Positions 4,322-13,412 of a DNA stretch of 64,000 nucleotides are shown in pieces. Position 1 is the first letter of the stretch, and each line of letters begins with the position of its first letter. The position numbers and the translations under genes are program-made. The DNA comes from Streptococcus mitis (GTDB lineage Bacteria; Bacillota; Bacilli; Lactobacillales; Streptococcaceae): assembly GCF_016658865.1 (NCBI RefSeq), contig NZ_CP067992.1:1693001-1757000 (forward strand), written 5' to 3'. The notes beneath the pieces were generated by a model, which was given only the letters and a program-made list of their open reading frames with translations, searched no databases and was not told where the DNA came from.

Positions 4322-5377
4322 TTATTTGACTTTGTAGAAGAAGGATTGATCATTCCCATGTGCGTGAGGTGCTTGGTGAATAATCATTCGGTCTCTACTA
4401 GTATCAGATGCATCTTCTACAAAATTTGGCTCAGTAACTGTCGGAATAACCACTCCAGCAGGAATCATATCGAGTTGCGCCCTAATAGTTGGAGCTTTAT
4501 AACTTGTAATTATATATCCATCTTTAAAAACAGCATCATTGATATCCACATAAAATTCTGCTGGTTCTATTAAGCCATTTTTACTAAAAACTAGATCCTG
4601 TCCCCCATTTCCTGTACTCCATCTTCCCTCAATACTAGAAAAATCTCCGTTTTTGATGGCGTTTATATCCATTTTCCCTGAAGCTGTTTTGGTAGTTGAA
4701 GATGCTGTTGCAGCTGTCCCCTTGTCTGAATTACTTCCTCCAGGAAGTTTATCTGAAACTGACTTCCAACTTAGGGTTTCTAGAGAAATGGGCGAACCGA
4801 CACCAAGATCTGCTAACTCTTGAGCTTCCTTAACTTTTACCAAAGACTGTCCATCCTCACTAAATTGGTAGTAAGCATAAATATGACTCGTTGCCGAACT
4901 AGATCCACGATAGAGCAGAGAATTGTCTGGCAGGATACCGACTGTCATTCTCTCACCAATCTGGTCTAAACGATTTTCTTGATTGGTCAGACGGATCACC
5001 TTTCCATCTTTCAAAGTACGAATATCAAGTAAACTCTTTTCGCCGCTCTTCATTTCAAGAGCAAGCAAGAGTTCATCCACTCCGTCGTTATTCAAATCTG
5101 TCTTGTGGTAAACCACATCTGTGTAAAAACCTTGAGAAGACTTTACTTGACTAGCTAGGGGATTGACATCCATACCAGTCGGCAAGGTGCCTTTAGCTAC
5201 TTTTTCATAGTCATCCAAAACCTTATTGTAGTAACTGCAATCTATCTCTGGACTTGCCGCAGATGTATCTGATGTTGAATAAGATGGTGTTTCCGCGCTT
5301 TTGTTCCATGGTAGATACTGACAGCCTCCCAAAACCAGTGTCAGTAAAAGCGTTGTGACTAATAAAAACTTTTTCAT
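4322..5377 (-). CDS. DUF6287-type lipoprotein
   Basis: This 351-residue secreted lipoprotein has a signal peptide MKKFLLVTTLLLTLVLGGC with lipobox LGGC (lipidated Cys at about 19). A Ser/Thr-rich spacer follows. Residues about 45-200 form a globular domain containing KTDLNNDGVDELLLALEM, which resembles an EF-hand/VCBS-like Asp-rich loop. After a Thr/Ser-rich linker (about 215-235), the C-terminal part begins MDINAIKNGDFSSIEGRW, the hallmark of DUF6287 domains found in streptococcal lipoproteins. The function is unknown. It is transcribed alone, with a hairpin upstream (5390-5427) separating it from the next gene. Confidence 0.8.
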   Translation of the reverse strand: MKKFLLVTTLLLTLVLGGCQYLPWNKSAETPSYSTSDTSAASPEIDCSYYNKVLDDYEKVAKGTLPTGMDVNPLASQVKSSQGFYTDVVYHKTDLNNDGVDELLLALEMKSGEKSLLDIRTLKDGKVIRLTNQENRLDQIGERMTVGILPDNSLLYRGSSSATSHIYAYYQFSEDGQSLVKVKEAQELADLGVGSPISLETLSWKSVSDKLPGGSNSDKGTAATASSTTKTASGKMDINAIKNGDFSSIEGRWSTGNGGQDLVFSKNGLIEPAEFYVDINDAVFKDGYIITSYKAPTIRAQLDMIPAGVVIPTVTEPNFVEDASDTSRDRMIIHQAPHAHGNDQSFFYKVK

Positions 5378-5389
5378 ATTACTCCTTTA

Positions 5390-5427
5390 TCTAAGAGAAA
5401 GGAATCAGCATGTGCCAATTCCTTTCG
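5390..5427 (-). terminator. Hairpin after the frameshifted secreted-protein gene
   Basis: Reverse strand GAAAGGAAT ... ATTCCTTTC stem followed by TCTCTT. The U-tract is weak, so termination may be partial and the lipoprotein gene just downstream may share read-through. Confidence 0.55.
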
Positions 5428-5517
5428 GTATTTTTATTTTATCAAAATGTTACCTATCCGAAAATTATTTTCCGTTTCTATTTATTTGTTATAGGTCATC
5501 TCTCACAAGCTATAATT

Positions 5518-6287
5518 CTAGCGAATCCATTTACCTGATGCATCTACACGATAACCATCTGGCGTGCGTTCATTCACAGCCATCTTACCATTTGATTTAA
5601 GATAGTAATTACCTGACCAAGCATTTTGAACATAATTTCCATTCACATTGATAAAGTAGTAGCTATTGTAATGAACATCAAAAACCCAATTGTTAATGAC
5701 TTTTTTACCATTTTGGTAGTATGAGTTACCTGACCAACCAGTTTGAATTTTAGGTATTGGTGTTGGTGTCGATTTCTCTTGTTTTGGTGTTTCAGGTTTA
5801 TTGGACGTTTCTAGAGGATTGACATATTTTTCATTCTTAACAGTGAATGTCGCTGATATACCGCTGAAAATATGTAAAGTTTTAGAAGTTAGTTCATCTT
5901 CACTATAAAATTTTAGATAATATTCTCCATCAGGTACACTTGAAAAAGTTGTAGAATCTTGTACAGTACGGGGTACAGGCGCAGCATCAAATCTTCTTCC
6001 TAAAGCTTCTTTTTTAGCTTTTTTCCAGTATTTTTATTTATAAGATCTGCTCGTATATACGCATATGAGCTACCAGGTACACTTTGAACAGTCATATCAA
6101 CATAGATTTTTTCATTTTCTGAACCTGGAGTAATCTTAGATTTTACCTCATGATTCTCGGTACGAGTAATTTCAGCACGCACTGTTTGTGCTGAAAAAGG
6201 TAGAACTCCTGCTGTGTCTACAAGAGAGACAAGACCAAGTGTTGCAGCCGCTAGACTAGTCACTAAAACTGTTTTTGACTTCATCAT
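5518..6287 (-). pseudogene. Secreted wall-binding-repeat protein, reading frame split by a -1 shift
   Basis: The N-terminal part (6000-6287) has a Sec signal peptide with cleavage after VRA, then a domain ending NTGKKLKKKL and a stop at 6000-6002. The -1 frame continues without a stop from the same A-rich site down to TAG at 5518-5520. It encodes KEALGRRFDAAPVP, a beta-rich domain, a Pro/Thr/Glu linker, and repeats such as TGWSGNSYYQNGKK and NAWSGNYYLKSNGKM. These aromatic repeats resemble LytB/choline-binding wall repeats but are divergent. The full product would be about 256 residues. The junction holds two zero-frame A_AAA_AAG heptamers at 6018-6024 and 6009-6015. It is therefore either a gene broken by loss of one A, a phase-variable gene, or one with programmed -1 frameshifting. 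The start is ATG 6285-6287 after GGAG. The ligand is unknown. Confidence 0.75.
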
Positions 6288-6380
6288 CAACAATCTCCTT
6301 TAAATTTTTATTGTTTACGGTTACAGTAAGGGGTGGACTCTACTATATTTATGAAAAGAGTATCTGTGTTTATCTTTTAT
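6283..6380 (-). repeat. Promoter/leader repeat, copy 1 (before the secreted-protein gene)
   Basis: Positions 6283-6328 match 12267-12312 at about 43 of 46 bases, covering the start codon, ribosome binding site and a TGTAACCGTAAACAATAAA block. A weaker match continues to an operator-like element at 6354-6378, placed exactly 43 bases from the TTGTTTACGG block as in the other copy. The two genes that follow are unrelated in sequence, so the shared part is regulatory. Confidence 0.8.
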
Positions 6381-6460
6381 TTGATTAGCAAATGAAATTT
6401 TTATGAAAAAAGTATACTTAATCTTTTTCCTAGTTATTAGACTAAAGACTTTCTATTTTA

Positions 6461-7240
6461 TCATTTCCACCTACTCGTCAAATATGCCTTTTCTCCTATT
6501 GTCCAGTTCTGATCATAAGGATCTACTGACCATTTTGTTGCCAGTAAAAAAAATGGAAACTTACTGTAACCAATTTGAGCTTCTACTAGATCGGTGGTCG
6601 TATTATACCTTCTATCTCGTTTCCACTTACCAATTTTTTGACTTCTATTCCTATTCCAGATAAAAAGTTCCTCTGGAAGTGCATAAATTCTACCATCATG
6701 AGAACTACCTTTCATTACAGGATAAAGGTACTGATGCAACTGATATTCACATCGCTTATTTAAGAGCCAATATCCTAGAATCATATAGAAGGGATTTATC
6801 TTTTCAAGAGGTAAGATAATTGGTAAAGGTAAAGCATTACTCACATCCACTGGTTTTGTAAGATACATTAACCATAACAATAATGATGAAAAATAAACTA
6901 TAAATGTATGTAGTGGTATTCTATTCAAAACAATCATATATAATTTGTAATTCTTTATCTGTATCAAACAACGTCTTACATTAATACTGCCCACAATTAT
7001 TTTATATAGAAAAATCACACAGAAGATAGGTAAAAAAATATATACAAAAATTAAGAAAGATGTTAAAACGATAAACTCAGCTATTCCAATAACAGCTGGA
7101 TATTGAACTTTATATGTTTCAAAATCCTTTAATACAATGAACCATGGAGCGATAAAATACAAGCACGAGAATATTAGTAAAGCAATTTTTAAATAGAAAA
7201 TATTCAAGAATTGACTTAATTTTAAAATGTTTGTTCTCAT
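6461..7240 (-). CDS. Unknown multi-pass membrane protein
   Basis: I do not recognise this protein. It has four or five hydrophobic segments: about residues 15-40, 50-80, 110-130 and a weaker one near 145-160 (numbered from ATG 7240). These are followed by a charged C-terminal tail with RIYALPEELFIWNRNRSQ. The longer frame opens at 7276 but has no ribosome binding site there. The ATG at 7240 has AGGAG at long spacing, so the start is uncertain (260 or 271 residues). The region is A/T-rich compared with the flanking housekeeping genes. It lies between the chaperone operon and the frameshifted secreted-protein gene, 235 bases after the NERD gene. It may be part of the same cassette or an independent acquisition. 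Confidence 0.6.
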   Translation of the reverse strand: MRTNILKLSQFLNIFYLKIALLIFSCLYFIAPWFIVLKDFETYKVQYPAVIGIAEFIVLTSFLIFVYIFLPIFCVIFLYKIIVGSINVRRCLIQIKNYKLYMIVLNRIPLHTFIVYFSSLLLWLMYLTKPVDVSNALPLPIILPLEKINPFYMILGYWLLNKRCEYQLHQYLYPVMKGSSHDGRIYALPEELFIWNRNRSQKIGKWKRDRRYNTTTDLVEAQIGYSKFPFFLLATKWSVDPYDQNWTIGEKAYLTSRWK

Positions 7241-7276
7241 ATAAATTCCAGCTCTCCTATCCATCCAATTTATCAT

Positions 7277-7511
7277 TTCTTAAAACCATGACAATCTTAA
7301 AGCAGAATCCCCCCTATATTTGTTTAATAATTTGTAGGTATATATTAATCTGAACTTATTAAAATAATTTCTAATACTTCCTTCTACTTCCTTAGAAATA
7401 TTTTACTTGATTGTATAAGTTCTAGTAAATTCAATTCGGCTCATATTATTCTTGAAATATAACTCATATAAAAAATCTATAACATCAAATCCTTTATTGT
7501 TTTTACATGAT
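7277..7511. other. A/T-rich spacer with no supported gene
   Basis: No convincing coding frame, tRNA or strong terminator is visible. A short frame on the minus strand continues out of the NERD gene's 3' end in another phase (about 30 codons, up to about 7395) and could be decayed coding sequence. Promoter sequences for the downstream membrane-protein gene probably lie here. Confidence 0.4.
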
Positions 7512-8324
7512 TTAGCGTTTCAAAAGCAAATTAAATGTCTGCCGAATCATCTGTCCACCAATTGTATCCCTAAACTTATCTTCCCTAGATAACTCATCTA
7601 ACATCTCTTCTAGACTAACAGCCTTAATATGGCCTGGCCAAAAGACATTATCCAATCTACCTGCACCCTTATAGGTAGGCATCAAGACAACACGTGTTTC
7701 CAAGCGATAATATTTTAATAAATTTGCAAATTTATGGGAAAAGCTTTCTTCTGCATAAGACATGTTAGGGGACATTTTTTTAGGTCTGCCTATTTGAGCT
7801 CCTGTAGCACTGTCTATAGTGTACAATAAACCATCCGCTTCTCTATAAATCACATTTCCTGAAGCATAAAATTTTAAATCTACTAACCAAATCGTAGATC
7901 CAGAAACAATAACACAATCAATATCTGCATCTACCCTTTCATCTTCTAAATTGAGATTATGAACAGACCAAAAGGTAACTAATTTTTCTAAAAGTCCTTG
8001 TTTTTGTAATGCTTTCGCAAAATTGATTTCACCCTCTTGACCAAGATTAACTGCAGATTCATCGAATCCTGATTTATTCAATCCTTTTCCAGGTTCTCCA
8101 AACATCAATTCATGCTGATAAAGTTGATAATTCTTAAGCTTTTGTGGCTCAAATCCTGTCATTTTACCATTATGAGTTGCCTTGGAAATACTGGGAAGTT
8201 CACTATGTTTAGGTGTAGAAGGAGTAGGTGGTTCTGGAGAAACCTTAGCATTCTGTCTTCTGCCCCAAAGAAATCCTAATATAAAATATAGTATATTTCT
8301 GCGATGCTTAAAAAAGCGCAACAA
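7512..8324 (-). CDS. Membrane-anchored NERD (nuclease-related domain) protein
   Basis: About 270 residues. The N-terminus has one hydrophobic segment, ILYFILGFLWG, flanked by arginines, then a Pro-rich spacer. From about residue 95 comes a NERD domain: NLGQEGEINFAKAL, then DADIDCVIVSGSTIWLVDLK. The pattern E, D and DxK is the restriction-endonuclease-like (PD-(D/E)xK) active-site arrangement. A GTG at 8333 opens the frame, but the AGGAGG site sits directly on it and favours TTG at 8324. It is the last gene of the Hsp70 operon, 16-25 bases after the GrpE-like gene. Nuclease activity is inferred from the fold, not shown. NERD proteins can also be non-catalytic DNA or RNA binders. Confidence 0.8.
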   Translation of the reverse strand: MLRFFKHRRNILYFILGFLWGRRQNAKVSPEPPTPSTPKHSELPSISKATHNGKMTGFEPQKLKNYQLYQHELMFGEPGKGLNKSGFDESAVNLGQEGEINFAKALQKQGLLEKLVTFWSVHNLNLEDERVDADIDCVIVSGSTIWLVDLKFYASGNVIYREADGLLYTIDSATGAQIGRPKKMSPNMSYAEESFSHKFANLLKYYRLETRVVLMPTYKGAGRLDNVFWPGHIKAVSLEEMLDELSREDKFRDTIGGQMIRQTFNLLLKR

Positions 8325-8349
8325 TTTCTCCACCTCCTAAAAAAATACC

Positions 8350-8808
8350 TTATTTAGCAATAGTCACTTTACTTGGTCTAAGAACCCTATTATTTAACAA
8401 ATATCCTTTTTGCAATACTTCAACAATATTATTTTCACTTTGTTCATCAGTAGCTGCTACTGTATTAACAACCTCGTGCATACTGGGGTCAATCATACCA
8501 CTATTATCAATAACTTGTAATCCATTCAATGAAAGAATTTGCAGCAGTTCTTCAGCAATTGAAGTAAGCAAATCTGATTTTTCTTCAGATGATTCAATAC
8601 GATCAATAACTTGAAGAATCTGTTTCATAAATGGAGCAAATTTCTCACCCTTATCTAAATCCTGTCTATAGATTAAATACTGCTTCAGTTCTTCAATCAG
8701 ACTATTTTTTGCTTTATCTTCTAATAAACGGCGTGTAATTAAAGATTCAATATCTTCAACTTTATCTACGATATACGAAACTTTTTCATGCAATACTTCT
8801 TCACTCAT
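8350..8808 (-). CDS. GrpE-like nucleotide exchange factor, short variant
   Basis: This 152-residue protein has a helical N-terminal two-thirds. Its C-terminal part is clearly GrpE-like: MIDPSMHEVVNTVAATDE, then VEVLQKGYLLNNRVLRPSKV, matching the beta-wing that contacts the Hsp70 nucleotide-binding domain. It is shorter than housekeeping GrpE (about 175-200 residues), with a reduced N-terminal coiled coil. The gene sits between the J-like and NERD genes with gaps of 7 and 16 bases. The inferred partner is the Hsp70 encoded two genes upstream. It is not housekeeping grpE, which lies in the hrcA-grpE-dnaK-dnaJ operon of streptococci. Confidence 0.85.
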   Translation of the reverse strand: MSEEVLHEKVSYIVDKVEDIESLITRRLLEDKAKNSLIEELKQYLIYRQDLDKGEKFAPFMKQILQVIDRIESSEEKSDLLTSIAEELLQILSLNGLQVIDNSGMIDPSMHEVVNTVAATDEQSENNIVEVLQKGYLLNNRVLRPSKVTIAK

Positions 8809-8815
8809 AAAAACT

Positions 8816-10183
8816 TTATCCTTTCTTTCTTCTATTTATTTGCCATCCTTTAGGGTAATTGTAATACAAGACAATATTTGATAACAATGCCAAACTTAAT
8901 GCGTTACTAATCCAAAAGCTATTTACAAACTTATCAAAGAAACCACTCAAAAACCAATTGGCTGCAAAAACTAAGATGAACATGAGACATCCCATACCTT
9001 GTGAATGGCGTGTTGTGGCATAATTGATATAATTTTTATTTTCAATAAATTCATTGTAAAAACCATTATCTATAATTTTATTTTCAATCCCTAAACTTTG
9101 TGCCTTGGCCAAGTAAGCTTCTGCAATTCGAACACGCGCCTTATTATCTAAAACTGCTTCATTCTCATATTTTGTTCGATCAATATATTTTCTAAAGAAA
9201 GCCTCAACGTCTGTATCAGGTGCTTTTTTCATACGCTCTATCGTGATATCTAATAGTAACTTAAAATATACTTGCTGGAAATCTTTATTGTTACCATAGC
9301 GTTCGTTTAAGGTATCTAAATAATTCTCACACTCATCTTCAGATTTCAAAAATAGAATACCTGCATAATGTAGTTTATGCTCTAGTGAATCTGAAACATC
9401 TACTAATTTTCTTGCAAAATTATAGGCTTCCTCATTATCTCCAATTTCTCTATAAGAGCATGATAAAAGGTAATAAATATATTCTTCATTATTTTTATTT
9501 TCTTCTAAATAATGATCGTACAGATATCGAACATCTTTTACTGCCTGTTTATACTGATCAAATAAAAATAGTGATCTCCCCTTTTTCAAAAGATAAAAGG
9601 AATTATTAGATAGTTCAAAAGCTTCCTGATAATACTGAATTGCAAACTTTTGCTGATTCTTTTCACAATAAACATCACCTAACAAAGATAAGATATCTGC
9701 GTTTTTAGGTCTCAATCTATTAGCTTCACTAATAGCTAATTCTGCATCTGATAACTTTCTATCTTCAAGGCTAATCATAGCCTTGAAATACCAAACATCT
9801 GCATCATTTCGATTTATTTTTAAGGCTTCTTCAATGTAGGAATAAGCTAATGATTTCTTTCCTGAATAGAAGGCCTGTCTAGCTGAATCAAGATAGCTTG
9901 AATTTGAATGATTAGTTGGAGTCGAATCAGGGACTCCTTCAGAACTTTGTTTAGAATTTTCTAATTCCCTATCATATTTTTGTCTGGTTTCTTCACTTTC
10001 AAATACTTTTTCTGCCTGTGCAATGACTTCCATCTTTCTCTCAGCCATTGATCTTTGATCAATATTTGGAGAACCTGTCAACTGGCGATAGCGTCTTCTA
10101 TTTGACTTGATACTTTTCTTGACATCATCTAATGAACTTGTTTCTGAAATCCCTAACTCTTCATAATAGTTTATGACCGACAT
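8816..10183 (-). CDS. Degenerate J-domain / TPR protein with C-terminal membrane segments
   Basis: 455 residues. Residues 1-75 follow the J-domain pattern (NYYEELGISETSSLDDVKKS, ending YDRELENSK). The loop that should carry His-Pro-Asp instead reads RRRYRQLTGSPN, so the HPD that stimulates Hsp70 ATPase is absent. Residues about 95-330 are helical repeats of TPR type, for example AWYFKAMISLEDRKLSDAE-like units and ADILSLLGDVYCEKNQQKFA. Near the C-terminus are two hydrophobic segments (GCLMFILVFAANWFLSGFF and SLALLSNIVLYYN), suggesting a membrane anchor. It lies 12 bases after the Hsp70 gene. The inferred role is a membrane-bound scaffold or client receptor for this Hsp70. True co-chaperone activity is uncertain without HPD. 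Confidence 0.8.
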   Translation of the reverse strand: MSVINYYEELGISETSSLDDVKKSIKSNRRRYRQLTGSPNIDQRSMAERKMEVIAQAEKVFESEETRQKYDRELENSKQSSEGVPDSTPTNHSNSSYLDSARQAFYSGKKSLAYSYIEEALKINRNDADVWYFKAMISLEDRKLSDAELAISEANRLRPKNADILSLLGDVYCEKNQQKFAIQYYQEAFELSNNSFYLLKKGRSLFLFDQYKQAVKDVRYLYDHYLEENKNNEEYIYYLLSCSYREIGDNEEAYNFARKLVDVSDSLEHKLHYAGILFLKSEDECENYLDTLNERYGNNKDFQQVYFKLLLDITIERMKKAPDTDVEAFFRKYIDRTKYENEAVLDNKARVRIAEAYLAKAQSLGIENKIIDNGFYNEFIENKNYINYATTRHSQGMGCLMFILVFAANWFLSGFFDKFVNSFWISNALSLALLSNIVLYYNYPKGWQINRRKKG

Positions 10184-10195
10184 TGTGTTCCTCCC

Positions 10196-11734
10196 CTAAT
10201 CAATAGTTAAATCTTTTATTTTACGACTAGCTACTTCTACAGCACTTTTATCGAGATTTGCTTGTCTCTCTACTTCAAAAGTCCCTAATAAGTGATTATC
10301 CGAATCATGTACCTCTACAAAAACTGTTTGATCGACATCATAATGATAAGTTACCTTCAAAACCGTTCCTGCTGGCCAGTCACCTGGTAATTTAATGGTA
10401 CTCTCTCCTATAACCGTAACAAATTGCGGATCCTCGTCATCCCCTTGAGTAACCTCTACTAACACATTTTGTTGATTATCAACAACTGTTGAAAAATACT
10501 CAGAGTACTTGTTTGGTACCTTGGAATTTTTAGGAATAATAATTGTATTTCTTTTCACACCATTCGAAAGAGCCAGAGTTCCCAAGGCTTGAGAAGTAAC
10601 ATCCGAAACAACTAACTTTTCTGCTAATCCACGAACTGTTTCACTAACATCTGCACTTTCTGATTTATTAGCGATTTCCAATGCTGCCTGAATAGCTGCT
10701 CCTTGTGCTACAGCTTCATCTGGATTAATAGAATATACAATCTTCTTCCCAATTTTCTCTTCCAATTTTCTTTGTACCATTGGCATTCGAGTTGAACCAC
10801 CTATTAATAGTACTTGGTCAATTTCATCCCATGACATTCCAGATTCTTCAACAACATCATCTAACAGCTCCTCTGTACGATTCATTAGACTTTTTGTTGC
10901 TTCTTCAAATTCTACACGTGTTATAGGAATTTTATAACTTTTTCCTTTATAGTCGAGAAAGACATTTGTTTTTTCTACAGTTGTTAGTCCTCTCTTTGTA
11001 TTCTCTGATTTTTCACGAAGTAAGGCAGTAAAATGTTCATCCGTATAAATATCCTCTGCTCCCTGTTCTTCCATCTTTTCAGCAATAATCATTGATAAGG
11101 CGTTATCAAAATCAAACCCTCCTAGATTACGATCTCCATCGGTGGCAATAACATCAAACTCGCCATCTTTTATTTTCATTAATGTAACGTCAAAAGTTCC
11201 ACCACCTAAATCGTATACCAATACTGTCTCATTTTTTTCTGCTGATATACCATATGCAAGTGCAGCGGCTGTCGGTTCATTTAAAACTCGTAAAACATTG
11301 AGTCCAGCAATTTCTCCAGCATGTTTTGTTGCTGTTCTACGAGCATCATCAAAATAAGCTGGAACAGTTATTACAACATCCTCTACTTTGTCACCAAGGG
11401 CATTTTCTGCTCCTTCTTTTAATCTTTTTAAAATGATTGCTGAAATTTCTTCTGCTGTATAAACAGTATCACTAGGAGAATCAAACTTCCAATTTGGATT
11501 TCCCATTTGCCTTTTGACATACTGTACAACTGCTTCAGGACGACTTGCTGCCAAATTTTTAGCTTGAATACCAACAAGTGGTTCATCTTTCCCATCAAAA
11601 TCCTGAAAGAATACAACAGATGGAGTTAAATTTTCACCATCTTGATTCAATAAAATTTGTGGTTGTCCAGTCTCTGATAATACAGATACTGCTGAATAAG
11701 TCGTTCCTAAATCAATTCCAATTGCTTTACTCAT
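10196..11734 (-). CDS. Hsp70/DnaK-like chaperone lacking the C-terminal lid
   Basis: 512 residues. The ATPase domain is intact: GIDLGTTYSAVSV at the N-terminus, VPAYFDDARRTATKHAGEIA, NEPTAAALAYG, DLGGGTFDVTL, and LLIGGSTRMPMVQ, then a linker near SDVTSQALG. A beta-sandwich substrate-binding region follows (about 370-500). The chain stops shortly after, so the helical lid of DnaK (about 100 residues) is missing; housekeeping streptococcal DnaK is about 607. The start ATG 11734 has AGGAG upstream. It is the second gene of the five-gene operon. It probably works with the co-encoded J-like and GrpE-like proteins on dedicated clients. Lidless Hsp70s usually release substrates quickly; that property is inferred here. 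Confidence 0.92.
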   Translation of the reverse strand: MSKAIGIDLGTTYSAVSVLSETGQPQILLNQDGENLTPSVVFFQDFDGKDEPLVGIQAKNLAASRPEAVVQYVKRQMGNPNWKFDSPSDTVYTAEEISAIILKRLKEGAENALGDKVEDVVITVPAYFDDARRTATKHAGEIAGLNVLRVLNEPTAAALAYGISAEKNETVLVYDLGGGTFDVTLMKIKDGEFDVIATDGDRNLGGFDFDNALSMIIAEKMEEQGAEDIYTDEHFTALLREKSENTKRGLTTVEKTNVFLDYKGKSYKIPITRVEFEEATKSLMNRTEELLDDVVEESGMSWDEIDQVLLIGGSTRMPMVQRKLEEKIGKKIVYSINPDEAVAQGAAIQAALEIANKSESADVSETVRGLAEKLVVSDVTSQALGTLALSNGVKRNTIIIPKNSKVPNKYSEYFSTVVDNQQNVLVEVTQGDDEDPQFVTVIGESTIKLPGDWPAGTVLKVTYHYDVDQTVFVEVHDSDNHLLGTFEVERQANLDKSAVEVASRKIKDLTID

Positions 11735-11743
11735 ATTTCACTC

Positions 11744-12271
11744 CTAATCATTATTTGATTTAAACTGTGTTAGTATTTCTGTTAAAAACTCACAGTATTT
11801 TAATTCTGCATCAATCTTGCTCTGATTTTTCCCCAAAGTTCTAAGACTGCTAACTGTTAAATTACTAAGTTGAGCTCCTAATTTCTGACCCAATGACAAA
11901 TCCGATTCTCTAATTGCTTCCCTGAATCTTTTATTATCTTCTGATATGTAGTATTTTTTTAATTGTTTACTCTCACCTAAAGTATCTATAGTCAGAAGCT
12001 GTACTGATCCTTGGTTTTTTAAACGAAAACAAAACTTTACATAGTCTTTCTGGTGATTTGGGTGTGAAATAACTAGACATTCTTCAATCTCTTTATTAAA
12101 CAAACCACCGAGTTTTATTTGTTCTTCATCAATTTTACAAGGAAGATCAAACTCTTTTGCTTTTTCAACAATTTTCGTCTTACAATATTCTAAATCTAAT
12201 CTAGGATTATTCTCATCGGAATAATATCTCCATTCATCTATATAACTTTCCAATTCTTTGTATTTAATCAT
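11744..12271 (-). CDS. Unknown cytosolic protein, first gene of the Hsp70 operon
   Basis: I do not recognise this 175-residue protein. It is charged, with no signal peptide or membrane segment. The N-terminal half looks mixed alpha/beta (KIDEEQIKLGGLFNKEIEEC, then VKFCFRLKNQGSVQLLTID). The C-terminal half is mostly helical and ends KYCEFLTEILTQFKSNND. The start is ATG 12269-12271 (MIKYKELESY), supported by GGAG six to seven bases upstream; a TTG further out (12277) is unlikely. It ends 9 bases before the Hsp70 gene. As the promoter-proximal gene it could be a client, sensor or adaptor. No function can be assigned. Confidence 0.75.
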   Translation of the reverse strand: MIKYKELESYIDEWRYYSDENNPRLDLEYCKTKIVEKAKEFDLPCKIDEEQIKLGGLFNKEIEECLVISHPNHQKDYVKFCFRLKNQGSVQLLTIDTLGESKQLKKYYISEDNKRFREAIRESDLSLGQKLGAQLSNLTVSSLRTLGKNQSKIDAELKYCEFLTEILTQFKSNND

Positions 12272-12364
12272 CAACAATCTCCTTTTATATTTTATTGTTT
12301 ACGGTTACAGTATAGCATGCTATTTACCTTATTTACAAAAAGCGTATTTATATTTACCTTTATT
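12267..12364 (-). repeat. Promoter/leader repeat, copy 2 (before the Hsp70 operon)
   Basis: This matches copy 1 at 6283-6380. It includes the start codon, ribosome binding site, the TGTAACCGTAAACAATAAA block and, 43 bases from the start of that block, the operator-like element. Within this copy the minus strand has TATACT (12311-12316) with TTGTAA 18 bases upstream, a plausible sigma-A promoter. Copy 1 has CTTACT at the equivalent place, so it should be weaker. Confidence 0.8.
12337..12363. promoter_or_regulatory. Operator-like direct repeat, unit 1
   Basis: Plus strand AAAAAGCGTATTTATATTTA followed by CCTTTAT. It matches unit 2 at 23 of 27 positions and contains a GTA...TAC dyad. It overlaps or abuts the presumed -35 region of the Hsp70 operon promoter. 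A binding site for the divergently encoded Rgg/MutR-like regulator is an inference. Confidence 0.55.
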
Positions 12365-12373
12365 GAACAATTA

Positions 12374-12388
12374 CCCCCCCCCCCCCCC
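12374..12388. repeat. Homopolymer tract of 15 C (15 G on the minus strand)
   Basis: Fifteen consecutive C residues lie in the divergent intergenic region between the Hsp70 operon and the Rgg-like gene, midway between two direct repeats. Tracts of this length are prone to slipped-strand length change during replication. The exact count may also carry sequencing error. Confidence 0.9.
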
Positions 12389-12389
12389 G

Positions 12390-12416
12390 AAAAAGCGTAA
12401 CTATAATTACCTTTTT
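12390..12416. promoter_or_regulatory. Operator-like direct repeat, unit 2
   Basis: Plus strand AAAAAGCGTAACTATAATTA followed by CCTTTTT, with an imperfect GTAACTATAATTAC palindrome. It begins exactly 53 bases from unit 1, close to five helical turns, and is separated from it by the C tract. It lies closer to the Rgg-like gene, so it could serve autoregulation. Confidence 0.55.
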
Positions 12417-12482
12417 CTAAAAAAACCTTAAAAATTGGTAGAATTATGATAGAATGGAAAAAAGGACTTGAGGAGATTTAGG

Positions 12483-13412
12483 ATGCAAGATGAAAGTGTG
12501 TATGGATTAGTCTATAAGGCTATTCGTGAGGAGAGAGGATTTACACAAAAGGAAGCTGCTGGGACTACAGTGACTCCTCATTTTTTACGTCAGTTTGAGC
12601 AAGGGAAATCTCGAATAACCATTCAAAAATTTGAAGAGATTCTTTCTAATATTGGAATTGATAAAGAGACCTTTGATAGTCTCAAAACACAGATGTTTCC
12701 AACGGAATTTCATAAATTACAGGCTCAGGTTGCTGATTTGGCCTACAAGCGTGAATTTAAAAAAATCATTAGTTTGATTAATCAACCCATGGAAAATCCT
12801 GGGATTGCTGAACACTATGTGATTGCCAACCGTGTAGTCAATAAATTTGCTATCGCAAACATCATTGGCGATTCTTTTCTGACTCCAAAAGATTATCAAG
12901 AACTAGAATATATCAAGAACTATCTGAGTGAATTGGACGACTGGAATAAAATTGAGGTTAATATCTTTTCATCTATCCTGCCTCACTTTTCAATCGAATT
13001 TTTAGATTACAGACTCTACCACCTATTAGATACTCTAAAAAAACAAACTGAATACCATTCAATCCGTACTGCTGACTACTATATTGCCTGCTTAAGAACT
13101 GCTATCAAGCATTACTCTGTCAATGGCTACTATGATAAGGCTGAGAATTTAGCAGTGAAGACTCTGGAAGTGATTAATACTTTCCCTCTACTGAGTACCA
13201 AGATGACAGAGATGATTAGCATTTCTATGGAACGTGCTAATAATTTTCTCAGAAAAGACGATGTCAGAGGTCTAGAACTTGCTAAGCATATCTTTGCCAG
13301 TCTTGATAACTTTGAAAAAATCTATCCAAATCAACTTCTGACTCGAATGAGAGAGGATTTCTTTGTTACTGTCACACAACTCAATCACACTGGCCAGCCT
13401 TTAGATATCTAA
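12483..13412 (+). CDS. Rgg/GadR/MutR-family transcriptional regulator
   Basis: About 309 residues, typical for the family (about 285-310). The N-terminal helix-turn-helix reads VYKAIREERGFTQKEAAGTT followed by VTPHFLRQFEQGKSRI. The rest is helical repeats that in Rgg proteins bind signalling peptides. The start is ATG 12483 because GAGGAG lies eight bases upstream; a TTG at 12468 would overlap that site. It is transcribed away from the Hsp70 operon from the same 200-base intergenic region. No SHP-type pheromone gene was seen next to it, so it may act as a stand-alone or differently tuned regulator. Its targets are inferred to be the two copies of the shared promoter element. Confidence 0.88.
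   Translation: MQDESVYGLVYKAIREERGFTQKEAAGTTVTPHFLRQFEQGKSRITIQKFEEILSNIGIDKETFDSLKTQMFPTEFHKLQAQVADLAYKREFKKIISLINQPMENPGIAEHYVIANRVVNKFAIANIIGDSFLTPKDYQELEYIKNYLSELDDWNKIEVNIFSSILPHFSIEFLDYRLYHLLDTLKKQTEYHSIRTADYYIACLRTAIKHYSVNGYYDKAENLAVKTLEVINTFPLLSTKMTEMISISMERANNFLRKDDVRGLELAKHIFASLDNFEKIYPNQLLTRMREDFFVTVTQLNHTGQPLDI

Follow-up and report, generated by a model that had tools for sequence, protein, structure and literature searches.

What would a bacterium do with a second Hsp70 that is encoded in an operon of its own, together with a protein that has a nuclease-related domain (NERD)? This question is raised by a locus of Streptococcus mitis that lies in a 64,000-nt stretch of contig NZ_CP067992.1 (here the window; the host genome is 2,033,396 bases in one contig). 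Five minus-strand open reading frames (ORFs), separated in the ORF list by 9, 12, 7, and 16 bases, encode a protein without a Pfam match (ORF1), an Hsp70 that lacks the helical lid, a protein with a J-like region and tetratricopeptide repeats (TPR; here the J/TPR protein), a GrpE-like protein, and the NERD protein. The sequence-only reading, an earlier account made from the letters of this DNA alone, had described this tight packing correctly and proposed a specialized chaperone system at the membrane, possibly an acquired stress or phage defense module, that acts on the nuclease-like protein or on the first protein. Here, we find that the operon, a rare cassette of oral streptococci that appears to move between species, sits at a swappable-cargo site behind a promoter with a poly-G tract between two operator-like sites. 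We read it, with a rough probability of 0.45, as a phase-variable conflict or defense module whose NERD protein would be restrained or remodeled by the Hsp70 machine. The architecture of the locus is well supported; the defense function is the uncertain part.

A lidless Hsp70 with its own partner proteins

The lidless Hsp70 (10196..11734, minus strand; 512 aa; Pfam HSP70 9.4e-123) aligns with the host DnaK (607 aa) through the beta substrate-binding domain and ends where DnaK continues into the helical lid, as had been proposed. The phosphate/ATPase motifs of the nucleotide-binding domain and the beta substrate-binding domain are present by Pfam and by alignment. DnaK and this protein are the only two Hsp70 matches in the host genome, and relatives of the same shape are encoded on a Rhodococcus plasmid (56% in the alignment) and in a Butyrivibrio metagenome-assembled genome (MAG; 50%). 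A profile built from these three proteins matched all 398 genomes of the phylum that were searched, with scores in two groups. Among the matches listed, the upper group (963 to 498 bits) comprised six genomes, including the host, and the lower group (445 bits downward) consisted mostly of proteins of about 600 aa. Because the scores split in this way, a lidless clade exists but is rare; about three candidates were scored per genome, so lidless Hsp70s may be missed. The claim that this is a second, specialized chaperone set, separate from DnaK, thus stands. Searches with the Hsp70 gave 37 loci in viral contigs, and the best 30 of 40 phage records and the best 60 of 204 plasmid records were considered; among these listed matches the Rhodococcus plasmid protein (54%) stands out, and the rest, of lower identity, were taken for DnaK-type proteins. 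The arginine equivalent to DnaK R167, the residue that contacts the J-domain aspartate, is kept in all three aligned lidless Hsp70s and is a lysine in genome G250.

The other five genomes with lidless Hsp70s have different neighbors, among them GrpE and tandem lidless Hsp70s around a protein of about 220 to 235 aa. No phmmer match to the J/TPR or NERD protein was found among the ORFs of these five genomes, in which some contigs span only 3 to 5 kb. We considered these Bacillota loci as the same system and rejected that assignment, since the partner genes differ. In two of them (L073, 5331-11169; L069, 8685-13643), tandem lidless Hsp70s flank the 220- to 235-aa protein in what is a different Hsp70 system; in L073, the only one scanned with Pfam, a polyprenyl synthetase follows. 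The Butyrivibrio MAG (L034, 82-5170) encodes a lidless Hsp70, a GrpE, and two J-like/TPR proteins consecutively.

The J/TPR protein (8816..10183, minus strand; 455 aa; TPR_2 3.6e-8) scores 23.2 bits against the Pfam DnaJ profile, under the cut-off of 27.8. The best solved relative of its J-like region is the J domain of DNAJB8 (phmmer, 1.3e-6). The His-Pro-Asp (HPD) motif is needed for the stimulation of Hsp70 by J domains, yet the first 79 residues, which form the J-like region, contain neither an HPD nor any histidine. TGSPNIDQRSMA occupies the HPD position and is invariant in 6 sequences, and LTGSPNIDQRSMA is likewise invariant at the position of the HPD loop in the six aligned J/TPR sequences; in the Rhodococcus protein, HPN stands at the HPD position. 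With no HPD, this is not an ordinary DnaJ. An HPD-less J-like domain with an invariant motif of its own raises the question of what might drive an Hsp70 when the canonical J signal is missing.

In the predicted model (predicted local distance difference test [pLDDT] 80, predicted template modeling score 0.56), J-like helices at residues 5-9, 17-34, 40-59, and 63-78 are followed by a helical repeat array and by a C-terminal helical hairpin (396-419/422-441), and hydropathy peaks at 1.90 at residue 398. From the model and the hydropathy the protein is clearly predicted to be membrane-bound, so that the TPR and the membrane segments of the sequence-only reading hold, while the J-like part differs from DnaJ. 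A fold search with the model returned TPR superhelices and added little. A search of 5.8 billion proteins yielded ten relatives; protein searches here depend on shared 5-residue words. There was no match in viral contigs or phages, and a profile search of 395 genomes of the order returned only the host genome.

The GrpE-like protein (8350..8808, minus strand; 152 aa) is confirmed by PF01025 (3.6e-19; 69.5 bits versus a cut-off of 25.8), although it falls under every listed NCBIfam GrpE equivalog cut-off. None of the Hsp70, J/TPR, GrpE, and NERD proteins reaches an NCBIfam equivalog cut-off.

The NERD protein (7512..8333, minus strand; 273 aa with a GTG start) matches PF08378 (2.8e-7; 31.5 bits versus a cut-off of 22.1), and the match spans positions 2-70 of the 111 in the profile. 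The sequence-only reading had named loss of the acidic/Lys residues across the clade as grounds for refutation, but these residues are retained: E102, D137, D139, D152, and K154 are invariant in all nine aligned relatives and are the predicted catalytic residues of a nuclease. Nineteen relatives were found, including proteins of an uncultured Granulicatella and of Streptococcus sp. ZJ93; the NERD profile found only the host among 395 genomes of the order and no solved structure at 0.1.

ORF1 (11744..12271, minus strand), the first gene of the operon, belongs to no known family; it encodes 175 aa from its ATG and is listed from a TTG at 12277. A search of 5.8 billion sequences returned two proteins, plasmids gave no match at E values up to 1, and the predicted model (pLDDT 52) is too poor for interpretation.

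The operon occupies an exchangeable-cargo site

Upstream of the operon and divergent from it lies a gene for a helix-turn-helix (HTH) regulator (12468..13412, plus strand), tentatively Rgg-like, with Pfam HTH and Rgg_C matches that are all below cut-off. The regulator is 87 to 100% identical in 9 of 197 streptococcal genomes, the sample to which all counts at genus level refer; these are species representatives and under-sample genes that vary between strains. What lies behind the regulator promoter differs among the nine. Three (G000, G095, G081) have the Hsp70 cassette, two (G106, G066) have a choline-binding-protein gene directly, and one (G076) has an SPFH/Band 7 gene with three further ORFs; in the remaining three (G080, G065, G089) the contig stops in the G tract, so that the cargo is unreadable. 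The alternative cargo of G076 (L097, 10053-12967) encodes an SPFH/Band 7 protein with a zinc ribbon.

The boundaries of the cassette coincide with two copies of a promoter leader, one upstream (12264..12361, minus strand) and one downstream (6280..6377, minus strand) before a choline-binding-type gene, which are 78.6% identical over 98 bp. Homology to the genomes with empty sites breaks off at 12264, where ORF1 starts, and is found again from 6377. Two leaders are present in the related locus L076, two surround the SPFH cassette, and each empty site has one, a pattern from which we infer that cassettes may be gained and lost by homologous recombination between leaders. The sequence-only reading had suggested a phage defense module and asked whether such genes lie in defense islands; judged by its sequence, the locus adjoins choline-binding-protein genes and accepts swappable cargo, and it is not a recognized defense island. 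Integration at a tRNA gene was considered and dropped, as no tRNA was detected in the window.

The acquired stretch extends past the operon to about 6378, and the regulator (12468-13412) is part of the locus. The operon stretch has a GC content of 33.4% versus 39.7% for the window, so that it is A/T-rich as claimed, but modestly, since 28 of 297 stretches of the same size have a lower value.

A poly-G tract lies between two operator-like sites

The promoter of the operon had been called switch-like, and the case for this proved stronger than claimed. A G15 tract (12374..12388 on the minus strand; C15 on the plus strand) lies between two operator-like sites, O1 (12397..12410; GTAACTATAATTAC, nearly palindromic) and O2 (12344..12357; one mismatch to GTAANTATANTTAC). 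These are the only two sites with at most one mismatch in the 64 kb, where 0.18 would be expected, and two sites occurred in 1 of 100 shuffles. Closer to ORF1 is a promoter-like element, TTGTAA-18-TATACT with a TG before the -10 (12309..12338, minus strand), and TGCTATACT is kept in all six readable related promoters. In these six, the G tract measures 15, 15, 20, 13, 14, and 15 nt and the O1-O2 spacing 53, 53, 58, 51, 52, and 54 bp, and the distance from O2 to the -10 is fixed at 36 (6/6). The locus thus has the long promoter homopolymer with length polymorphism by which phase-variable loci are recognized (13 to 20 G, with assembly error possible).

The G15 tract is the sole run of at least 12 G in the host genome. 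Such runs occur in 8 of the 11 genomes examined, lying elsewhere in G053 and at two additional places in G066. Regulators that are 38 to 39% identical, in G041 and G053, have differently lettered operators flanking a G12 (54 bp) and a G6 (50 bp), so that on sequence comparison the order of operator, G tract, and operator is conserved while the operator letters have changed. We rejected chance or sequencing error as the source of the tract, which stands at the same place in six assemblies and as a G12 beside a 38%-identical regulator. The loci in G041 and G053 (L100, 10285-10478; L099) are another divergent pair, of a regulator and a secreted protein, with such operators.

The DNA helix has 10.5 bp per turn. 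On this value, O1 and O2 are 5.05 turns apart at G15 and 5.52 turns apart at G20, so that slippage would turn O1 around the helix with respect to O2, and tract length may in this way alter expression.

Distribution, selection, and transfer

The J/TPR protein is present at 90% identity or more in 3 of the 197 genomes (G000, G095, G081), and the NERD profile finds the same three; weak J/TPR matches in 26 more genomes run through the J-like region in most cases and, in G150, over residues 3-164. The Hsp70, J/TPR, GrpE, and NERD genes occur together in these three and in S. infantis SPAR10 (L032); G081 and the loci L033 and L075 seem to derive from a single assembly, that of S. infantis DD18. Relatives of the J/TPR protein (P0008) and of the NERD protein (P0022) each come from one contig, and both contigs are 12940 long, which suggests that they are the same contig and that the genes are linked in a fifth source. 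Clusters at 90% identity hold 525 J/TPR and 727 NERD member sequences. The predicted co-occurrence holds for J/TPR and NERD; the decay of ORF1 in L032 counts against a tight five-gene unit.

Between the window and L032, the number of synonymous substitutions per site (dS) is 0.29 for Hsp70, 0.32 for J/TPR, 0.13 for GrpE, and 0.22 for NERD, compared with 0.78 for the regulator; the neighboring mutS2, at 1.87, is close to saturation. Because the dS of the operon is far below that of mutS2, these values suggest that the operon was recently passed between species. The proposal of an acquired module is borne out by this contrast and by the empty and alternative loci of sister genomes. The ratio of nonsynonymous to synonymous substitution (dN/dS) against L032 is 0.02 for Hsp70, 0.09 for GrpE, 0.14 for J/TPR, and 0.21 for NERD, and against L076 it is 0.01 to 0.12; from these ratios, the four recognized genes are under purifying selection.

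Relation to known systems

The set resembles housekeeping DnaK-DnaJ-GrpE in the Hsp70 nucleotide-binding and beta substrate-binding domains, the GrpE fold, and a possible J-like fold. It differs in having no lid and no HPD, in the TPR and membrane hairpin that replace the DnaJ domains, and in an Hsp70 that by profile score belongs to a clade separate from DnaK.

A related arrangement is the Rhodococcus plasmid operon, which encodes a small protein, Hsp70, a TPR/J protein, GrpE, and an FtsK/SpoIIIE-like (EssC-like) ATPase, without NERD; TniB/TniQ genes and a recombinase lie upstream of it. Across 812 aligned positions, this ATPase shares 34% identity with one in Streptococcus G150 (1 of 197 genomes). 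A relative on a Caballeronia plasmid adjoins vWA, WXG100, CARF, PP2C, and kinase genes, a setting that comes near the extended arrangement of CoCoNuT (PMC11090510). The ATPase cores match the PADLOC mad8, SspH, and HerA models, which indicates kinship of the core and not membership. We count the Rhodococcus ATPase, by analogy, as a likely conflict-type partner of a related chaperone core. The G150 locus (L101, 3664-8392) encodes the EssC/FtsK-like ATPase, four ORFs of 80 to 99 aa, and an HPD-less J/TPR protein, with no Hsp70 found nearby.

Several published systems share single features with the locus. In CoCoNuT type III, Hsp70-like CnuD nucleotide- and substrate-binding domains are tied to nucleases with a predicted defense role, and EssC/FtsK-like ATPases appear in extended versions; the ATP motifs of CnuD are degenerate (PMC11090510), whereas those of the window Hsp70 are intact, and no McrB-like GTPase was found among the 8 window proteins scanned. 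NERD nucleases are partners in described or proposed YprA-linked (PMC12458937) and SMC-HicA (PMC10865869) defense systems, where, as here, NERD would be a PD-(D/E)xK-type nuclease partner; the window locus has no helicase, SMC, or HicA and has a chaperone machine instead. Phage sensing by bNACHT25 is mediated by DnaJ (PMC12169576). In Streptococcus pyogenes, a length-variable tract between the divergent regulator and surface-protein genes Spy1336/R28-Spy1337 affects transcript levels (PMC7098570). The placement of the homopolymer is alike; there the cargo is a surface protein, while here a poly-G between operator-like sites precedes an exchangeable Hsp70-NERD cassette. Among the papers listed from the open-licence literature, which leaves subscription journals largely uncovered, there was neither one on an Hsp70-J/TPR-GrpE-NERD operon nor one on the poly-G promoter of this locus; PMC8195603 contributed nothing specific.

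A candidate function and its alternatives

In the mechanism that we favor, the divergent regulator would bind O1 and O2 on both sides of the poly-G tract. Slippage of the tract would shift their distance and helical phase, with O2 and the -10 fixed, and expression would vary between cells. The promoter would drive a dedicated machine composed of an ATP-driven lidless Hsp70, a GrpE exchange factor, and a membrane-tethered, HPD-less J-like/TPR scaffold, and this machine would bind and restrain (or mature) the NERD nuclease at the membrane. Phage, another incoming element, or membrane damage would disturb the complex and release NERD, which would then cut nucleic acid. Such a mechanism would build on what the genomes show: the genes present, their mobility, the exchange of cargo, the polymorphic tract, and the intact nuclease residues. 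Its conjectural steps are that NERD acts as a nuclease, that the Hsp70 machine restrains it, that tract length changes expression, the trigger, and a role in defense. It is also possible, if more tentatively, that the locus represents a new class of conflict system built on an ATP-driven guard. Composed of a lidless Hsp70, its exchange factor, and a J/TPR scaffold without HPD, the guard would control interchangeable effectors (NERD in oral streptococci, an EssC/FtsK-like ATPase in Rhodococcus); in streptococci it would travel in a leader-bounded cassette switched by poly-G operator phasing.

Several observations weigh against a regulated NERD-based defense. ORF1 has decayed in L032, where no ORF of 70 aa is called and stops interrupt the frames, and in L033/L075, where the 5' part of ORF1 is masked or unsequenced, the reading frame of the Hsp70 is split; the set can therefore lose parts. 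The sequence-only reading had offered ORF1 as one of two possible clients; since the remaining four operon genes are intact in L032, an essential client role for it is unlikely. The same reading had called NERD membrane-anchored: the domain is confirmed, but apart from a short hydrophobic patch close to its N terminus the protein has no clear transmembrane helix (maximum 19-residue hydropathy mean of 1.22). The most distant aligned NERD proteins (P0028, P0030, P0031) reach maxima of 1.74 to 2.22 before the conserved part, while the window protein and several near relatives stay below 1.6, so that anchoring in the window is weakly indicated. No Hsp70 partner genes were found, in the stretches seen, beside NERD relatives on Arthrobacter (L140) and Bifidobacterium (L141) plasmids and on a viral contig (L102), which argues that NERD in general is independent of this machine. 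PADLOC 2.0.0 gave a single marginal match for the five operon proteins, GrpE to PDC-M39B at 0.0049. On the promoter side, a sigma-70 scan found 23 promoter-like sites versus 22.0 expected, which is not significant, and the tract lengths were read from assemblies, in which homopolymers are error-prone. Finally, envelope functions are suggested by the other cargos found here, all of them surface or membrane proteins (choline-binding, SPFH).

This last point underlies the main rival, envelope quality control, in which the J/TPR protein and the lidless Hsp70 would assist or clear membrane and surface proteins, NERD would be structural or non-nucleolytic, and the switch would serve surface variation. 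The choline-binding proteins and the zinc-ribbon SPFH/Band 7 protein at sister sites fit this idea, as do the predicted membrane binding of the J/TPR protein, a multi-span membrane protein encoded in the same cassette, and the expression-affecting, length-variable tract at a surface-protein gene of S. pyogenes (PMC7098570). A purely structural part would not be expected to keep its acidic and lysine residues, as NERD does in all nine aligned relatives, and the related Rhodococcus operon carries a conflict-type ATPase rather than surface proteins. On balance, we regard envelope quality control as somewhat unlikely.

Less probable still is a general stress chaperone, that is, a spare DnaK/GrpE for heat or oxidative tolerance with NERD hitchhiking. 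The intact ATPase motifs and the position of Hsp70 as the most constrained of the four genes against L032 would suit such a role. The set, however, lacks both lid and HPD, has no zinc-finger or C-terminal DnaJ families among its Pfam matches, and carries NERD together with J/TPR in 3 of 3 genomes, with NERD the better conserved of the two in the probable P0008/P0022 pair (55% versus 33% identity).

The GAP1-N2 GTPase-centered conflict systems offer a third alternative. According to Kaur et al. 2020 (PMC7159879), theme 2 of these systems combines HSP70, GrpE, and DnaJ/TPR proteins, with a predicted membrane role, in firmicutes and actinobacteria; the idea of a specialized chaperone set thus has precedent. 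The window locus shares this triad and differs in NERD, the HPD-less J domain, and the poly-G promoter. No GTPase, FNIII, zinc-ribbon, or vWA match was found among the 8 window proteins scanned (4322-13412), with no whole-genome GAP1 search made; Pfam gave no FNIII match in the J/TPR protein, and no GTPase is annotated in the Rhodococcus stretch. The sequence-only reading knew of no described streptococcal system of this makeup; the combination of HSP70, GrpE, and DnaJ/TPR protein has this published counterpart, but the GAP1-N2 GTPase and FNIII were not found at the locus. We give membership in this class little credence. A decaying mobile leftover without current function, to which the decayed ORF1 (L032), the split Hsp70 frame (L033/L075), and the sparse distribution might point, is highly improbable given dN/dS values of 0.01 to 0.12 (versus L076) and 0.02 to 0.21 (versus L032) and 90%-identity clusters of 525 and 727 members.

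Returning to a phase-variable conflict module, two features were unexpected, whatever function may be assigned to them: a switch at which cargo is exchanged, and a separate clade of Hsp70 whose effectors change. If the favored reading is true, Hsp70, usually a housekeeping protein, would on more than one occasion have become the regulatory core of a mobile module, each time with a different effector, and streptococci would place swappable cargo behind one slippage-controlled promoter. The natural empty state, the two cassettes, and the tract-length variants make cargo and switch separable for testing.

Neighboring genes

The sixth gene of the cassette (6461..7276, minus strand) encodes a 271-aa multi-span membrane protein with hydropathy up to 2.70 and no Pfam, NCBIfam, or PHROGs match. 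Homology of S. infantis to the window ends at 7469, and this gene is absent from both S. infantis loci. Directly behind the downstream leader is the choline-binding-type surface-protein gene (6000..6293, minus strand), which is cut short at 97 aa versus 295 to 405 aa in relatives and is longer in L076 and L095. Further downstream of the cassette (4322-5377), a 351-aa DUF6287 protein is encoded, whose relatives in sister genomes have 515 to 519 aa.

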